Of a stretch of DNA of 64,000 bases, positions 18,195-35,255 are shown one piece after another; within the stretch, counting starts at the first letter, position 1, and each line of letters opens with the position of its first letter. The stretch spans positions 1,302,001-1,366,000 of the forward strand of contig NZ_CP041660.1 in NCBI RefSeq assembly GCF_007289895.1, in the 5' to 3' direction. Below the pieces are notes generated by a model, which ran no database searches, was not told the DNA's origin, and saw only the letters and a program-made list of their open reading frames with translations. The translations under genes were made by a program, and so were the position numbers. Origin of the DNA: Catenovulum sediminis (lineage in GTDB: Bacteria > Pseudomonadota > Gammaproteobacteria > Enterobacterales > Alteromonadaceae).

Positions 18195-19001
18195 CTAGTC
18201 ATGCTCATGGTTGAGAATTCTATATAACAGCTGTTTAACCATACCGGGCTCAAAGGGTTTATCACAGATTGCATTGACCCCCGACTGCGCAATGTTCGAT
18301 AAGTGTGTTTCGTTTGCTTCAGAACTCACCATCAAAACCGGCATGTGTGAATGCTGTCCATGCGAGCGGATATATTCAGTTAACTCACGACCATCGACTT
18401 CTGGCATATTGTAATCGGTCACCACCAAATCAAACATTTCATTTTCCAAAATTGTTTGAGCTTGCGCACCATTTTCAGCTTCTGTCATACGCTGGACACC
18501 CAAATTCGCCAACACTCGTTTTATATGATTGCGTGCTAAGCGACTGTCATCCACCACTAATACACGAACATCATGAACATCAAATAAATCCAGTTCTAAT
18601 TCATCGGCGGTTAATAAATCCAGTGTTGAATTGATAGCCGTCCCAAGATGCTCAGCAGTAAACGGTTTCGGCAAAATTGCCACCACCCCTGCTTGTTTAA
18701 ACTCTTCTAATTGAGCTTTTCGATACTCACTGGAAACCAACATAAAAGGCACATCGGAATAGGGTTCAGAATGCCGGATATGATGTAACAACTGCAATCC
18801 TGTTCCATCTGAAAAATGCAAAGCAGAGATAACTAAATCAGGCACACTTTTTAAAATAGATGCGCGTGCAGATTCAACATCTGTTGCTTCAGTGACATGT
18901 ACAATATCTTCCTTTTCTAAAAAGCGCATGATCACTTTTCGTTGAGTAACAGAAGGTTCAACTAATAAAATTGATAAATCCGATGGTGATAGCTGCTGCA
19001 T
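18195..19001 (-). CDS. Two-receiver response-regulator protein, first receiver degenerate
   Basis: The 268-residue protein consists of two CheY-like receiver domains and no output domain. The second (about 145-268) is complete: LVVDDSRLAR, phospho-acceptor D196 in LVVTDYNMPEVDG, and KPF near the end. The first (about 8-130) keeps the fold and the KPF lysine, but the acceptor aspartate is replaced: LVISALHFSDG has Ala at position 60. Its acidic pocket is altered too (LLVEPS). It is divergent from the crsA-crsR pair and probably signals in the same circuit; this is inference. Confidence 0.85.
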   Translation of the reverse strand: MQQLSPSDLSILLVEPSVTQRKVIMRFLEKEDIVHVTEATDVESARASILKSVPDLVISALHFSDGTGLQLLHHIRHSEPYSDVPFMLVSSEYRKAQLEEFKQAGVVAILPKPFTAEHLGTAINSTLDLLTADELELDLFDVHDVRVLVVDDSRLARNHIKRVLANLGVQRMTEAENGAQAQTILENEMFDLVVTDYNMPEVDGRELTEYIRSHGQHSHMPVLMVSSEANETHLSNIAQSGVNAICDKPFEPGMVKQLLYRILNHEHD

Positions 19002-19227: not shown

Positions 19228-19533
19228 ATGAGTTTAAGCAAAAGCCTTTCCGCGGACGGAAAAACCTTTACCATTCAAATAGCAGGCAAGTTTGATTTTA
19301 ATTTAGTGCAAGAATTTCGGGCGGCGTACGCCAATATTGGTGATAGCCAACCAAAAGTCGTTGTTGACCTGCGTGACACCGAGTATATGGATTCTTCTGC
19401 TTTAGGTATGTTATTGAACATGCAAAAGAATTTAGGCTCTAAAGTCTCCTCCATTAAAATTGCAAATTGCCGCCCCCAAATTAGGAAAATATTACAAATA
19501 TCCCGTTTTGATAAAAAATTTGAAATCGACTAA
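19228..19533 (+). CDS. crsA: STAS-domain anti-sigma-factor antagonist (CrsA/HsbA-like)
   Basis: A 101-residue single STAS domain. The phospho-acceptor region VVDLRDTEYMDSSALGMLLN carries the DSSALG motif (about 55-60), the site that is phosphorylated to switch partner binding. The gene lies 14 bases before a REC-phosphatase-kinase gene. The same pair occurs as CrsA-CrsR in Shewanella, where it controls sigma-S availability, and as HsbA-HsbR in Pseudomonas, where FlgM is involved. The precise target here is not shown by the sequence. Confidence 0.82.
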   Translation: MSLSKSLSADGKTFTIQIAGKFDFNLVQEFRAAYANIGDSQPKVVVDLRDTEYMDSSALGMLLNMQKNLGSKVSSIKIANCRPQIRKILQISRFDKKFEID

Positions 19534-19547
19534 GGGTAAAAGACACA

Positions 19548-21239
19548 ATGCATATACTCGTGGTTGACGACCAAGAGCTCAATCGAACCATGTTGCAGTA
19601 TATGCTGGAATTGGAAGGGCATCAGGTATCGCAAGCAATACATGGAAAAGATGCAATAGAACGCTTTAGTCAATTAAAACCAGATATCATTCTGCTTGAT
19701 GTCATCATGCCAGAGATGGATGGATTTGAAACCGCCCCTATATTGAAAAGTTTAGCCGGCGAAGTTCACTTACCCATTATATTTTTAACGTCTTTAGATG
19801 ACCAAACCTCGATGCTTCGCTGTCTTGAGGTGGGTGGGGATGACTTTTTAGCCAAGCCATTTGATAAGTTAATTTTATCAGCCAAAATTCAAGCTCATGT
19901 CCGTAGCCGCGAATTAGCCAAAAGAATCTCAGAACAGAACCAGCAGCTCAAATTCCACCAAAATCAGATGGCACGCGAGCATCAAATTGTCGAGCACATA
20001 TTTGAAAATGCACTACGCAGAAATAACGCTCGGCCAGAAATAGTCGACCACTACCTATCCCCAGCATCGACATTTAACGGTGATTTATTGTTAACCAATA
20101 CTAGCCCGCTAGGAGGGACTTACATATTTTTAGGTGATTTTACCGGACACGGCTTAGCAGCCGCTGTAGGTGCTCTACCCACTGCACAAACTTTTTTTGA
20201 ATTAACCGAACGTGGCATGTCTGTTGGAGATATCGCAAAAACAATTAACACCCGCTTATTACAACTACTACCTGACGATATGTTTTGTGCAGCTTGCATA
20301 ATCGAGCTGTCTTGCAGCGCTAAAGCTGCATCTGTTTGGTCTGGCGGAATGCCTGATGTCCTGATTGTCAATGATGAGTTGGGTGTCCGGCATAAAATTC
20401 AATCTCAGCATATGGCATTGGGCATTTTAGAAGGTGACGAATTTGAGCATACCACCATTAACTGCGATTTAACCCCGCAGGATAAATTAATCGTCTTTAC
20501 AGATGGCATTACTGAAACGATGAATCAACATTCAGAAATGTTTGGCGACGATCGTTTAGAACGCGTGTATCAAACAAAACCTCAAAGCCAAATAAAAGAT
20601 TTGATTCAGCACTTAAATGAATTTAGAGATGCTGACGATCAACAAGATGACATCTCAATTGTACAAATTAACTGTATCCCTTCGCCAACCCCATCAGACT
20701 CCAATGCTGACGAGATCCCGCCACTTCCCTGGCAAGTATCCGTCAGCTTAACCCCTGATGATATCAGGCACACAGATCCCGTTGCTCAAATTCTCGATAT
20801 GGTGTCAGCTTTCCAAGGCATGGAAAAACACCGATCTACTTTATTTCTTTTACTGGCCGAAATGTACAATAATTCAGTTGATCACGGTTTATTAAATATG
20901 GACTCTGAAATTAAAGACGCTGAAGATGGTTTTTTTGAATATTATATGCAAAGACAAACCGCACTTGAATCTTTGCAAGCTGGCTTACTGAATATTCAAG
21001 TACGTTATATCCCTGCAGAACAAATCATCCGTCTTTCAATAGAAGATAGTGGTCAAGGGTTTGATACAAAAGCCGCGCAAGAGAAAACCAACGACTCTGA
21101 ACAGCATGGCCGTGGATTAAAACTCATAACTGATTTGGGTAGCAACCTGAAATACGAAAAAGAAGGGCGCGTCATTATCGTGGATTATACGGTTGAATCA
21201 GACAATGTTAACTGGGCCGCAAATGAAATGCCCAGTTAA
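19548..21239 (+). CDS. crsR: Three-domain partner-switching regulator: receiver, PP2C phosphatase, anti-sigma kinase (CrsR/HsbR-like)
   Basis: 563 residues with three domains. The receiver (1-120) has VVDD and acceptor D51 in LLDVIMPEMDG. The SpoIIE-type PP2C phosphatase (about 165-375) has GDLLLTN, LGDFTGHGLAAAVGALP and FTDGITE metal-site motifs. The C-terminal GHKL kinase (about 395-555) has N box LLAEMYNNSVDHGLL, IEDSGQGFD and HGRGLKLI. This order matches CrsR and HsbR. Phosphorylation of the receiver would switch the protein between dephosphorylating and phosphorylating its STAS partner. It is cotranscribed with crsA. Confidence 0.86.
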   Translation: MHILVVDDQELNRTMLQYMLELEGHQVSQAIHGKDAIERFSQLKPDIILLDVIMPEMDGFETAPILKSLAGEVHLPIIFLTSLDDQTSMLRCLEVGGDDFLAKPFDKLILSAKIQAHVRSRELAKRISEQNQQLKFHQNQMAREHQIVEHIFENALRRNNARPEIVDHYLSPASTFNGDLLLTNTSPLGGTYIFLGDFTGHGLAAAVGALPTAQTFFELTERGMSVGDIAKTINTRLLQLLPDDMFCAACIIELSCSAKAASVWSGGMPDVLIVNDELGVRHKIQSQHMALGILEGDEFEHTTINCDLTPQDKLIVFTDGITETMNQHSEMFGDDRLERVYQTKPQSQIKDLIQHLNEFRDADDQQDDISIVQINCIPSPTPSDSNADEIPPLPWQVSVSLTPDDIRHTDPVAQILDMVSAFQGMEKHRSTLFLLLAEMYNNSVDHGLLNMDSEIKDAEDGFFEYYMQRQTALESLQAGLLNIQVRYIPAEQIIRLSIEDSGQGFDTKAAQEKTNDSEQHGRGLKLITDLGSNLKYEKEGRVIIVDYTVESDNVNWAANEMPS

Positions 21240-22957: not shown

Positions 22958-23536
22958 ATGAAATCGCTTTATACTGGCTTGCTCGCTTTAAGTTTATTCA
23001 GCGCAAGCGCAACTGCGGCACACTATGTTATTGATGATGATGAAAAAGGTGCGCATGCAGCGGTTAATTTTAAAATAAAACATTTAGGTTATAGCTGGCT
23101 AACGGGCAGATTTAACCGCTTCGAGGGACATTTTAACTACGAGCCTGGAAAACTAGAAGACAGCTCAGTAAAGGTGACAATAGATACCACTAGCGTCGAC
23201 TCCAACCACGCTCGCCGAGACAAACACCTACGTGGTGATGATTTCTTATCAGTGGATAAATTCCCTAAAGCAACCTTTATCAGCAACAGAATCGAAACGA
23301 TAAATGAAGAAGAGTTCAAGATCCACGGCAAGCTGACTTTACATGGCGTAACCAAAGACGTTGTAATCGATGCGACAAAAATTGGTGAAGGTAAAGACCC
23401 GTGGGGTGGATACCGAGCCGGTTTTACAGGCACGACAGAATTAGCGCTGAAAGATTTTGGAATTGACTATAATTTAGGCCCTGCTTCAACACATGTTCAA
23501 TTAGAACTACATGTAGAAGGTATTCGACAAGATTAA
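22958..23536 (+). CDS. yceI: YceI-family periplasmic lipocalin-like protein
   Basis: A 192-residue secreted protein: signal peptide to about ASATAA, then the YceI beta-barrel with DDDEKGAHAAVNFKIKHLG, SWLTGRFNRFEGHF and the run VDSNHARRDKHLRGDDFLSV. The fold binds a polyisoprenoid in homologues. It is partnered with the cytochrome b561 gene and may carry a quinone-like lipid; this is inferred from family and context. AGGAG stands 8 bases before the ATG. AGAGCG...CGCTCT just after the stop may be a weak terminator. Confidence 0.93.
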   Translation: MKSLYTGLLALSLFSASATAAHYVIDDDEKGAHAAVNFKIKHLGYSWLTGRFNRFEGHFNYEPGKLEDSSVKVTIDTTSVDSNHARRDKHLRGDDFLSVDKFPKATFISNRIETINEEEFKIHGKLTLHGVTKDVVIDATKIGEGKDPWGGYRAGFTGTTELALKDFGIDYNLGPASTHVQLELHVEGIRQD

Positions 23537-23758
23537 TTATTAAAGAGCGTAAACTTTGCTTTGCGCTCTAACCCTCCTTTGTTGTAAGACATTTCCCTAT
23601 TTTCACCCCAACAAAATCCCTATCTCAAGTAGATAACTACACCAAAAACAAGCATAACCTATTGATAAAATTGGATATTAAAAATTTTCATTATTGAAAA
23701 ACCATTTTTCAGTTAAAAATAATCTCTTACCTCCTCTTTTGCTAAAAGAAAAAAACGC

Positions 23759-23764
23759 TAATAT
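23759..23764 (+). promoter_or_regulatory. -10 box of the CsrB-like RNA
   Basis: TAATAT lies about nine bases before the predicted 5' end. The -35 region (CTTTTG) is poor, as expected of a promoter that needs an activator. CTTACC at 23726-23731 matches five of six bases of one half of the UvrY/GacA site, and TGTAAG at 23583-23588 matches the other half type; neither is a full palindrome. Confidence 0.5.
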
Positions 23765-23770
23765 ATCTCT

Positions 23771-23952
23771 CGTACGGAACGCAACAGGACACAAACGGAG
23801 TTTGTTGCACCTTGGAGGTGTATTAAGGAATAACGGAAATGCATGAAGCATAACAATGAACATGATGTTCATTTCCACGGAATTGCAGGATGCACATTGG
23901 AAAAGCAGCTAACCGTCCAGGAAACGCCTATTTTTATAGGCGTTTTTCTTTT
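23771..23952 (+). ncRNA. csrB: CsrB/RsmY-family regulatory RNA (CsrA-sequestering)
   Basis: In about 180 bases there are ten GGA motifs, at 23776, 23787, 23797, 23814, 23827, 23835, 23879, 23888, 23899 and 23920, most in ACGGA, AAGGA or CAGGA contexts. Several lie in hairpin loops: ACAAAC-GGA-GTTTGT (23791-23805, perfect 6-bp stem), CACCT-TGG-AGGTG, and TGC-AGGA-TGCA. It begins after a TAATAT -10 box and ends in a strong terminator. This is the pattern of RNAs that titrate the translational repressor CsrA under BarA/UvrY (GacS/GacA) control. It has no protein-coding sense. Both ends are predicted by eye. Confidence 0.85.
23922..23952 (+). terminator. Terminator of the CsrB-like RNA
   Basis: AAACGCCTAT-TTTT-ATAGGCGTTT is a perfect 10-bp stem running into TTTTTCTTTTTT. 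Confidence 0.93.
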
Positions 23953-24182
23953 TTCTGCAGTAAATCACTTTTTGCTATTTAAATTGTAATTTAAACCCCC
24001 ATATTGGCTAAGTCAAAAAATATAGCTTTCACATTGAAGGAAAAACAGTATAGTGCTGGCGCGAAAGCACGATACTGACTATAAATTATAAATGCGTAAT
24101 AATTTATGATTGCTTACTCAAATTCTTTTTGATATAGATAGCCGTCTAGCGATAAGCTGGCGAACGATTTAGGAGAAGTGAG

Positions 24183-24635
24183 ATGCCCGCTGGCACAGAA
24201 AAAAAAGCAACCGGCATAATAGCTCAGGCAGGTTTACAGCCTTACCAGTTAAATGCTGGTGAAGAGTATATGAATGAAGCGCAACTTGAGCATTTCAGAA
24301 AGATACTGACAACTTGGCGCAGCCAGCTTAGAGCTGAAGTCGATAAAACCATGCATCATATGCAAGATGAAGCTGCAAACTTTCCAGATCCGGTTGACCG
24401 AGCGTCACAGGAAGAGGAATTCAGTCTGGAGTTGAGAACACGTGATCGTGAACGAAAACTCATTAAGAAGATTGAGAAAACACTTCAACTTATAGAAAGC
24501 GAAGAGTTTGGTTACTGCGAAGAATGTGGCGTCGAAATTGGCATTCGCCGATTAGAAGCACGACCTACAGCTGACTTATGCATTGACTGTAAAACCCTGT
24601 CTGAAATTAAAGAAAAGCAAAACGCCGGCCTTTAA
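24183..24635 (+). CDS. dksA: RNA polymerase-binding transcription factor DksA
   Basis: DksA enters the RNA polymerase secondary channel and potentiates ppGpp at stable-RNA and biosynthetic promoters. The 150-residue protein has the coiled-coil with the tip motif [11 protein letters not shown] (the DxxDxA acidic tip), and the zinc finger CEECG...CIDC near the C-terminus. AGGAG lies seven bases before the ATG. Length and motifs are standard. It follows the CsrB-like RNA by 230 bases and is linked to gluQ through a hairpin. Confidence 0.97.
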
Positions 24636-33239: not shown

Positions 33240-35255
33240 ATGGATACATACACAATATTGCTGGTGTCAGCATCAAGCATACTGACACTTTTGCTGGTTA
33301 CACTTCAACATACACTAAAACAGAATCAGTCAACCGGCTATTTTTTAGGGGCAACCCTTGTATCCGCTACCACCTTTTTATTTTCATACGCTTACAATTT
33401 ACCCTCGCTAACTTTTATCAGCTTTTCTACATTTATTATGAGTTGGCTGATAAGCCACTCTAAACTTGCTGAAAAACCCTTAATATATGCTTCTATCGCG
33501 ATAATACTAGCCGGCGTAGTCGGTGCAATATGTAGCTTTTGGGGTACTTATCTACCACAGCCCATTTATCTTTTTGCGGGCGCTTTACTGATTATTAGTT
33601 TACCGCTGTTTGTCAGCCGCTTTAATCTATACAACAGATCAACCACAGCCTTTAAATACAGCCAAGGCGGACAACTTTTTTTAATTGTTATTGCACTTTA
33701 TTGGTTAAGTATTGCCGCAACACAAGCCCAACCTGCAAATAACTTTATTATCGTTTTAACTGTATTGTCTTTATTCAGTGCTGTATTTGCCTTTTTACAC
33801 CACGACGTAAACACAAGCACGCACCGCGTTTCACTTCAAACGGATGCCAGACTAGATCCAACCTTACAACATTGGGCACTGCACGATACATTGACAGGCC
33901 TGCCGAACTCAATTTCTTTAGAACATAACTTTCGGCGAATTGTTCAACAAAACCCAAACTCTGACTTAGCCGTTGCGATTATTAAACTTGATGATTTTGA
34001 AACACTTAATCAAACACTCGGTTATAGTACAGGTGATATGGTACTCATTCAGATAAGCAAAAGAATTAACCAAACACTGGCAAAACAAAACTCAGTTTAC
34101 ACCATAGAAACACAAGACAAGACACCAGAATATAAACCAGAAAGTACACAACAGAATGCGCCAACCGATAAAAAACTAGCTGCTTTGTCGGGCCTCAGGT
34201 TTGCTTTTATTGCCGATCTAACACAACAAAAACATATCTTTGATTTACTGGTCAATGAGATAAGACAAGCAATTCCCGCTCCTATCCCGTATGAATCTAT
34301 GATGCTTAATATTAGTTTCCGGTTAGGTATTGCACCTTGCATTCATCATTCATATGACATCCAAAAATTGCTGCAACAAGCACAACATGCGCTGGATAGT
34401 AACCAAACTCAGCATCTGGGTTACAGCACCTATTCACCTGATATGGAAGTATTTAACCAATCGCACCAGTCTTTATTAAGCGATTTAAATTTAGCGGTTA
34501 ATAACAACCAGCTAGAGCTCTTTATTCAGCCCATTATTGATTTGAAAAGCCGTAGTATTGTGGCGGGTGAAAGTTTAATCCGCTGGCGACACCCGAAACA
34601 AGGCTTAATACCACCAGAGCAGTTTATTCAACTTGCTGAACATACTGGGGTTATTTATTCCATTACCCGTTGGGTGTTAACTGAATCAGTGCAAGCCTTG
34701 GTTAAACTCAAAAGTGAAGGGGTAGATTGCGCGATATCGGTTAACCTTTCCAGTAAAGATTTGCTACAACACGAGTTTATCGACTTTATCCAAAACCTGC
34801 TAGAAGCCAATCAGCTTGATGCAACACAACTGATATTAGAAATTCGCGAACAAGCGCTTATTCAAGCGCCGCAACAAAGCCATGACATTATTGAACGGCT
34901 CGACAGTATAGGAATTAAAACCGTTATAGACGATTTTGGCACTGGTTTTTCTTCACTCGCCTATTTACGCAAGTTACCCATTAGTGGCTTAAAAATCGAC
35001 CGCCAGTTTATCGCCAATCTGACACAAGGTAGTCGGCATAAAACCTTAGTTAATACCATTATCGATGTGGGCCGCAACCTGCAATTAAAAATTTATGCAG
35101 AAGGGATAGAAGACAGAGAAATAGAACAAAAAATGAAAGAAATGGGCTGTGATTTAGCCCAAGGTTTTTTGTACTCACGCCCAATTGAATTTGCCGGTTT
35201 TACCCACTGGGCGAAACAATGGCGGCAAAAAAACAATCAATATGAGGCGCGTTAA
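33240..35255 (+). CDS. Membrane-bound c-di-GMP phosphodiesterase with eroded GGDEF domain
   Basis: 671 residues. About six or seven hydrophobic segments fill residues 1-185. The next region (about 210-385) starts like a GGDEF domain (HDTLTGLPNSISLEHNF, VAIIKLDDFETLNQTLGYS), but the GGDEF motif itself is missing (GLRFAFIADL in its place). The EAL domain (about 400-665) keeps its likely catalytic set: the Glu of GESLIRW, NLSSKDLL, LILEIREQ, IDDFGTGFSSL, GLKIDRQF and AEGIED. It should therefore hydrolyse c-di-GMP and not make it. The N-terminal sensor signal is unknown. No good ribosome-binding site is seen before the ATG. Confidence 0.88.
   Translation: MDTYTILLVSASSILTLLLVTLQHTLKQNQSTGYFLGATLVSATTFLFSYAYNLPSLTFISFSTFIMSWLISHSKLAEKPLIYASIAIILAGVVGAICSFWGTYLPQPIYLFAGALLIISLPLFVSRFNLYNRSTTAFKYSQGGQLFLIVIALYWLSIAATQAQPANNFIIVLTVLSLFSAVFAFLHHDVNTSTHRVSLQTDARLDPTLQHWALHDTLTGLPNSISLEHNFRRIVQQNPNSDLAVAIIKLDDFETLNQTLGYSTGDMVLIQISKRINQTLAKQNSVYTIETQDKTPEYKPESTQQNAPTDKKLAALSGLRFAFIADLTQQKHIFDLLVNEIRQAIPAPIPYESMMLNISFRLGIAPCIHHSYDIQKLLQQAQHALDSNQTQHLGYSTYSPDMEVFNQSHQSLLSDLNLAVNNNQLELFIQPIIDLKSRSIVAGESLIRWRHPKQGLIPPEQFIQLAEHTGVIYSITRWVLTESVQALVKLKSEGVDCAISVNLSSKDLLQHEFIDFIQNLLEANQLDATQLILEIREQALIQAPQQSHDIIERLDSIGIKTVIDDFGTGFSSLAYLRKLPISGLKIDRQFIANLTQGSRHKTLVNTIIDVGRNLQLKIYAEGIEDREIEQKMKEMGCDLAQGFLYSRPIEFAGFTHWAKQWRQKNNQYEAR

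Follow-up and report, generated by a model that had tools for sequence, protein, structure and literature searches.

A candidate CsrB/RsmY-type small RNA gene upstream of dksA in Catenovulum sediminis and related bacteria

The window analyzed here is a 64,000-nt stretch of the Catenovulum sediminis genome (contig NZ_CP041660.1, positions 1,302,001 to 1,366,000). Within it, a yceI-family gene and dksA are separated by a 646-nt gap that holds, on the + strand, a cluster of GGA motifs and an intrinsic terminator (Table 1). The YceI protein is closest, among the matches listed, to those of Gayadomonas joobiniege and Catenovulum agarivorans (73%), in keeping with a Catenovulum-type member of the Alteromonadaceae. 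The original prediction of a CsrA-titrating RNA at this place started from a count of ten GGA motifs in about 180 bases. These were confirmed, with starts at 23776, 23787, 23797, 23814, 23827, 23835, 23879, 23888, 23899, and 23920 (span 23776–23922), and neither strand of the window has a denser GGA stretch: the + strand maximum of 10 GGA per 180 nt is reached only at the dksA-side locus, and the − strand maximum is 7. Ten GGA in 150 nt occurred in none of 5000 simulated gaps of the same length and composition (first-order simulation) and in 2 of 200 simulated 64-kb sequences (first-order, one strand). The cluster exceeds chance expectation, and a chance origin is unlikely.

Table 1. Features of the yceI–dksA interval (positions in the window).
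Feature	Position	Strand	Basis or remark
yceI-family gene, upstream neighbor	22958..23536	+	Pfam YceI
UvrY/GacA-type upstream box TGTAAGACATTTCCCTAT	23583..23600	+	first half consensus, second half degenerate
Probable −10 element TAATAT	23759..23764	+	sequence
Predicted Csr-type small RNA, ~180 nt, ten GGA	23771..23952	+	start placed from the −10 element
Possible hairpin ACAAAC-GGA-GTTTGT, GGA as loop	23791..23805	+	
Hairpin TGCACCTTGGAGGTGTA	23806..23822	+	fold −7.6 kcal/mol, z −3.1
Hairpin TGCA-GGA-TGCA	23884..23894	+	GCAGGAnGC kept in 7 of 7 aligned genus members
Conserved block AGCAGCTAACCGT ahead of terminator	23904..23916	+	GCAGCTAACCGT invariant in 7 of 7 aligned genus members
Intrinsic terminator with T-run	23920..23952 (scan: 23920–23947 plus T-run)	+	terminator scan, fold
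Conserved block TTGATATAGATAGCCG, probable promoter of dksA itself, past terminator	24129..24144	+	promoter role putative
dksA	24183..24635	+	Pfam DksA_N and zf-dskA_traR

A dksA match was present in 114 genomes, and in 90 of these the 1000 nt preceding the gene were examined (30 loci and 60 fetched stretches). At least 9 GGA per 180 nt were present in 9 of the 90, corresponding to 9 of the 30 loci and none of the 60 fetched stretches. Of the eight genus members, seven have the predicted GGA-rich RNA at dksA; outside the genus it is found in G056 (locus L101) and G042 (L102), which belong to other genera. The remaining genus member, G002, has no such RNA at dksA; its yceI–dksA gap is, by eye, the same sequence as in Gayadomonas (L013), which also lacks the RNA. 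Two of the 81 loci counted as being without the RNA (L112 and L158) reach 8 GGA per 180 nt, and neither has an upstream box by the patterns used (see below). The nine RNAs, whose ends were set manually, are 185 to 250 nt long and carry 9 to 14 GGAs; AGCTAACCGT precedes the terminator in every one of them. Mean column identity among the seven aligned genus members is 67%. Sequence has diverged among the nine genomes, and a GGA-rich RNA upstream of dksA has been kept. The predicted dksA-side RNA is clade-specific.

The claim of a strong intrinsic terminator was borne out by the terminator scan and by the fold (−14.9 kcal/mol, z −5.4), which is far stronger than that of shuffled sequences. In the five orthologs compared, all from other genomes, 2 of the 10 stem pairs have changed on both sides. 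This covariation is weak, because both pairs come from L101 only and 37 of 500 shuffles matched it. With a terminator of its own and no conserved open reading frame, the RNA appears free-standing and noncoding, and it is probably independent of dksA. The interval could also be read as a small-protein gene, since a 48-codon ORF (23843–23989) lies shortly after GGAAATGC, with a GGA upstream. However, this ORF crosses the terminator. In each of the other eight RNAs, the longest ORF to start there has 19 to 35 codons and, by eye, seems unrelated. The alignment gaps ignore the reading frame, and we consider a small-protein gene extremely improbable.

Several GGAs had been expected to lie in hairpin loops. 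This proved right for 3 of the 10, which are located in loops of stems of at least four Watson-Crick pairs (0.79 expected, P = 0.043), but the effect is modest. At 23806–23822, the stem of the predicted fold is closed by the A of the GGA. The ACAAAC-GGA-GTTTGT hairpin, singled out earlier as ideal, can form, but part of it is paired elsewhere in the minimum-energy fold. Taken as a whole, the RNA has moderate structure (z −2.3), and its mean GGA accessibility is 0.47 versus 0.43 overall. When the nine RNAs were assessed together, 21 GGA-in-loop hairpins were counted versus 7.0 expected, a number that none of 1000 shuffles reached. Orthologs L095 and L099 have 0 and 1 loop GGAs, respectively, and their GGA accessibility is below average. 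Since accessibility in the window RNA is barely above average and in two orthologs below it, structure by itself is unconvincing.

The original prediction also included a −10 box with a weak −35. In support of this, TAATAT is the −10 form in five of the nine RNAs, the window included (TATTAT in three and TAGTAT in one), and no good −35 was seen near it in the window; on the other hand, TAATAT was not reported by a promoter scan, which returned 5 sites versus 3.9 expected. The best site of that scan, 23694–23723, is a possible other start. A TAATAT element without a good −35 would fit an activator-dependent promoter. A TGTAAGA-type box lies 179 to 200 nt ahead of the first GGA in all nine RNAs (193 nt in the window), as counted with a pattern relaxed so that the L101 copy (TGTGCGA) is included.

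In the whole C. sediminis genome, the box pattern TGTRAGANATNTC has five distinct sites, while its reversed control has none. GGA-rich stretches follow three of the five, on the dksA side, beside folA, and before yihI; the other two (L144 and L145) have no GGA-rich stretch downstream. A stricter 18-nt box has 15 distinct sites in 30 relatives, the genome itself included. At least 8 GGA per 180 nt follow on one strand at 13 of these sites, 12 of the 13 clusters beginning 189 to 206 nt after the start of the box, and two sites (L239 and L248) are without a GGA-rich stretch. The center of the predicted window box is at about −180 from the putative start (~23771), similar to E. coli csrB, where UvrY binds an 18-nt inverted repeat centered at −183/−182 according to the available part of PMC4682653. 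The window copy differs from the E. coli csrB and csrC boxes at 8 and 6 of 18 positions, respectively, a level that chance matches at other places in the window also reach. Because the mismatch count is at chance level, the argument for a far-upstream UvrY/GacA box, predicted here in a degenerate copy, is based on conservation and spacing.

No conserved run in the RNA is longer than AGCAGCTAACCGT, a possible pairing seed. If the RNA were a base-pairing sRNA of the Hfq/ProQ type with incidental GGAs, GCAGCTAACCGT, located before the terminator, could serve as the seed. Yet the number of GGAs holds at 9 to 14 while the other sequence changes, and the upstream box is common to other GGA-rich RNA candidates, which makes a pairing RNA of this kind highly improbable. 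Base pairing and CsrA titration are compatible and not mutually exclusive.

Orthologs were also searched for with a covariance model, R2, which comprises 77 positions of the RNA 3′ end with a stated structure and was built from five orthologs, the window being kept out. R2 replaced a model based on a MAFFT alignment (R1), which was dropped because its structure was wrong. R2 found the window at 23874–23948 (57.2 bits, E = 3.8e-11) and two other orthologs outside the model (57.5 and 58.3 bits). The eight dksA-linked matches, five of them in the model and three not, scored 57 to 100 bits. At E up to 0.1, R2 has a match in 91 of 108 genomes; these E-values are too lenient, and therefore the score gap alone was used (57 to 100 bits versus 36.3 bits, the best listed match away from dksA in the 108 genomes, and below). 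The ninth RNA, that of G042, reached only 28.3 bits, which is within noise, and was counted on position, GGA count, and box. An exact pattern, AGCTAACCGT...AACGCC, occurs in 17 of 395 family genomes; 8 of the 17 are GGA-rich, all at dksA, and the other 9, with 0 to 5 GGA per 180 nt, look like chance matches. A nucleotide search of 147 genomes returned matches in 9 at E up to 0.01, including the genome itself and four more of its genus; matches from beyond the genus are in stretches with few GGAs. A triple-GGA pattern was genome-wide no commoner than its control, among the matches listed.

The RNA lies on the same strand as dksA and directly upstream of it in nine genomes, with no match of equal score away from dksA. 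This arrangement would agree with a leader or attenuator, in which the RNA would form the 5′ portion of the dksA mRNA and act in cis through termination or CsrA binding. However, the promoter-like block TTGATATAGATAGCCG located 3′ of the terminator is kept also at L013 and L096, both without the RNA, including the genus member that lacks it. Since this block persists where the RNA is absent, a leader role is disfavored. In addition, the RNA carries its own box and −10 element and is missing at 81 of the 90 dksA loci. We therefore regard a leader as very unlikely and return to the reading of the locus as a separate CsrB/RsmY-type gene.

Rfam models had been named as a check of this reading, and here the result was negative: no Csr/Rsm family matched in the window at its gathering score. 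CsrB (RF00018) had no match in the window at the gathering score and none genome-wide at E up to 1. Pseudomonas RsmY (RF00195) is similar to the predicted RNA in size, but in a permissive scan that covered 641 bases it scored 24.9 bits (E = 5e-4), far below its gathering score of 57. Genome-wide, RsmY gave nine weak matches of at most 22.2 bits, none at the gathering score and none at the dksA-side locus. Of the nine, one falls in the folA-side candidate (13.6 bits) and one in the yihI-side candidate (11.9 bits); the strongest are located outside GGA-rich stretches. An RsmY family call for the window RNA was rejected, the match being nonspecific at genome scale. Because no Rfam family reaches threshold, and the RNA belongs to neither RF00018 nor RF00195, it is considered a functional and not a sequence-family member of the group.

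The 4.87-Mb genome (two contigs) was searched for the proteins of the Csr circuit. It encodes CsrA (one match, 88.2 bits) and a UvrY ortholog located directly before uvrC (407.5 bits versus a cut-off of 280); a BarA-like kinase scored 731 bits, under the cut-off of 890. The GGA-rich RNA of nine genomes, the far-upstream box, and the csrA, uvrY, and barA-like genes support the CsrB/RsmY-type reading. Judging from sequence, we hold it very probable that the locus is a ~180-nt RNA gene of this type, familiar from many related bacteria, whose product titrates CsrA under UvrY control. In the proposed mechanism, UvrY phosphorylated by the BarA-like kinase would bind the box ~180 nt upstream and activate the RNA promoter with its weak −35. 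RNA polymerase would halt at the terminator ahead of dksA. The ten GGA sites of the transcript would bind as many as perhaps five CsrA dimers, and this titration would relieve CsrA-repressed mRNAs.

The predicted RNA resembles E. coli CsrB and CsrC in its many GGA sites, its terminator, and the CsrA/UvrY/BarA context, and it shares with csrB the placement of a UvrY-type box about 180 nt upstream. It differs from them in locus and in the lack of a sequence-family match; the positional counterpart of E. coli csrC is the yihI-side candidate and not the dksA-side RNA. Csr-type RNAs are also known in an alteromonad, Alteromonas macleodii Te101, whose Aln1a-c, likened here by description, are very highly expressed but are encoded together, all three within a single 404-nt intergenic region (PMC5864184, available text, which makes no mention of dksA). 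Pf1 to Pf3 of Pseudoalteromonas fuliginea, likewise compared by description, agree with the present RNA in the features that assign it to this class but have 25, 21, and 9 GGAs. Pf2 and Pf3 were verified by gel shift and glycogen assay, and no matches outside the genus were reported for Pf1 and Pf2 (PMC11882849, in the portion available, where dksA is not mentioned). Among the papers listed in a literature search, which covered few subscription journals, none describes in its title or abstract opening a Csr RNA located at dksA or known from Catenovulum.

The genome has at least three such candidates, the dksA-side RNA among them. The GGA-rich candidate beside folA (L240; G000:C1, ~742962–743596) is a giant, with 47 GGAs in ~635 nt, a 136-nt tandem repeat in 2.6 copies, and a UvrY-type box 197 nt upstream of the first GGA. 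Its folA-side counterpart in G002 (L249, ~1697–2454) has 67 GGAs and a repeat period of 101 nt. The different periods suggest independent repeat growth, which in G002, without a dksA-side RNA, is perhaps compensation. Two further clusters have 36 and 39 GGAs; the one tested, L237, is without such a repeat. A third Csr-type candidate with a UvrY-type box (L250; G000:C1, ~1449027–1449320) is located directly before yihI, where E. coli has csrC.

The neighbors that the original prediction had listed as common Csr-linked outputs, a sigma-S-type partner switch and a c-di-GMP phosphodiesterase, are real. They correspond to a gene pair for a STAS protein and, after it, a REC-SpoIIE-HATPase protein (19228–21239), with a double-receiver protein encoded divergently (18195–19001), and to a GGDEF-EAL protein (33240–35255). 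In domains only, the pair resembles P. aeruginosa PA3347/PA3346, which act in the HptB pathway controlling rsmY, not rsmZ (PMC2904497, available text).

In E. coli, ppGpp and DksA activate csrB and csrC, and CsrA represses dksA, as stated in the available parts of PMC7652899 and PMC4682653. By analogy, DksA/ppGpp may raise the RNA and CsrA may repress dksA at this locus, and a Csr-stringent link here is plausible; adjacency of the RNA and dksA alone is no evidence of it. A stronger version is unlikely. In it, selection would maintain the RNA gene and dksA as a single module: UvrY activation of the RNA would also alter dksA, by read-through or through local effects on promoters, the RNA promoter would be activated by DksA/ppGpp, and dksA would be repressed by CsrA.

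Overall, the locus holds an unannotated Csr RNA candidate that was missed when the genome was searched with two Rfam families, CsrB and RsmY; a GGA count combined with a box derived from close relatives points to such RNAs. The candidates with 47 and 67 GGAs and internal repeats bear on the evolution of CsrA-binding capacity. The RNA beside dksA offers a place to test the Csr-stringent link directly, and if the module were real, the reciprocal Csr-stringent loop of E. coli would be built into one locus in this clade.
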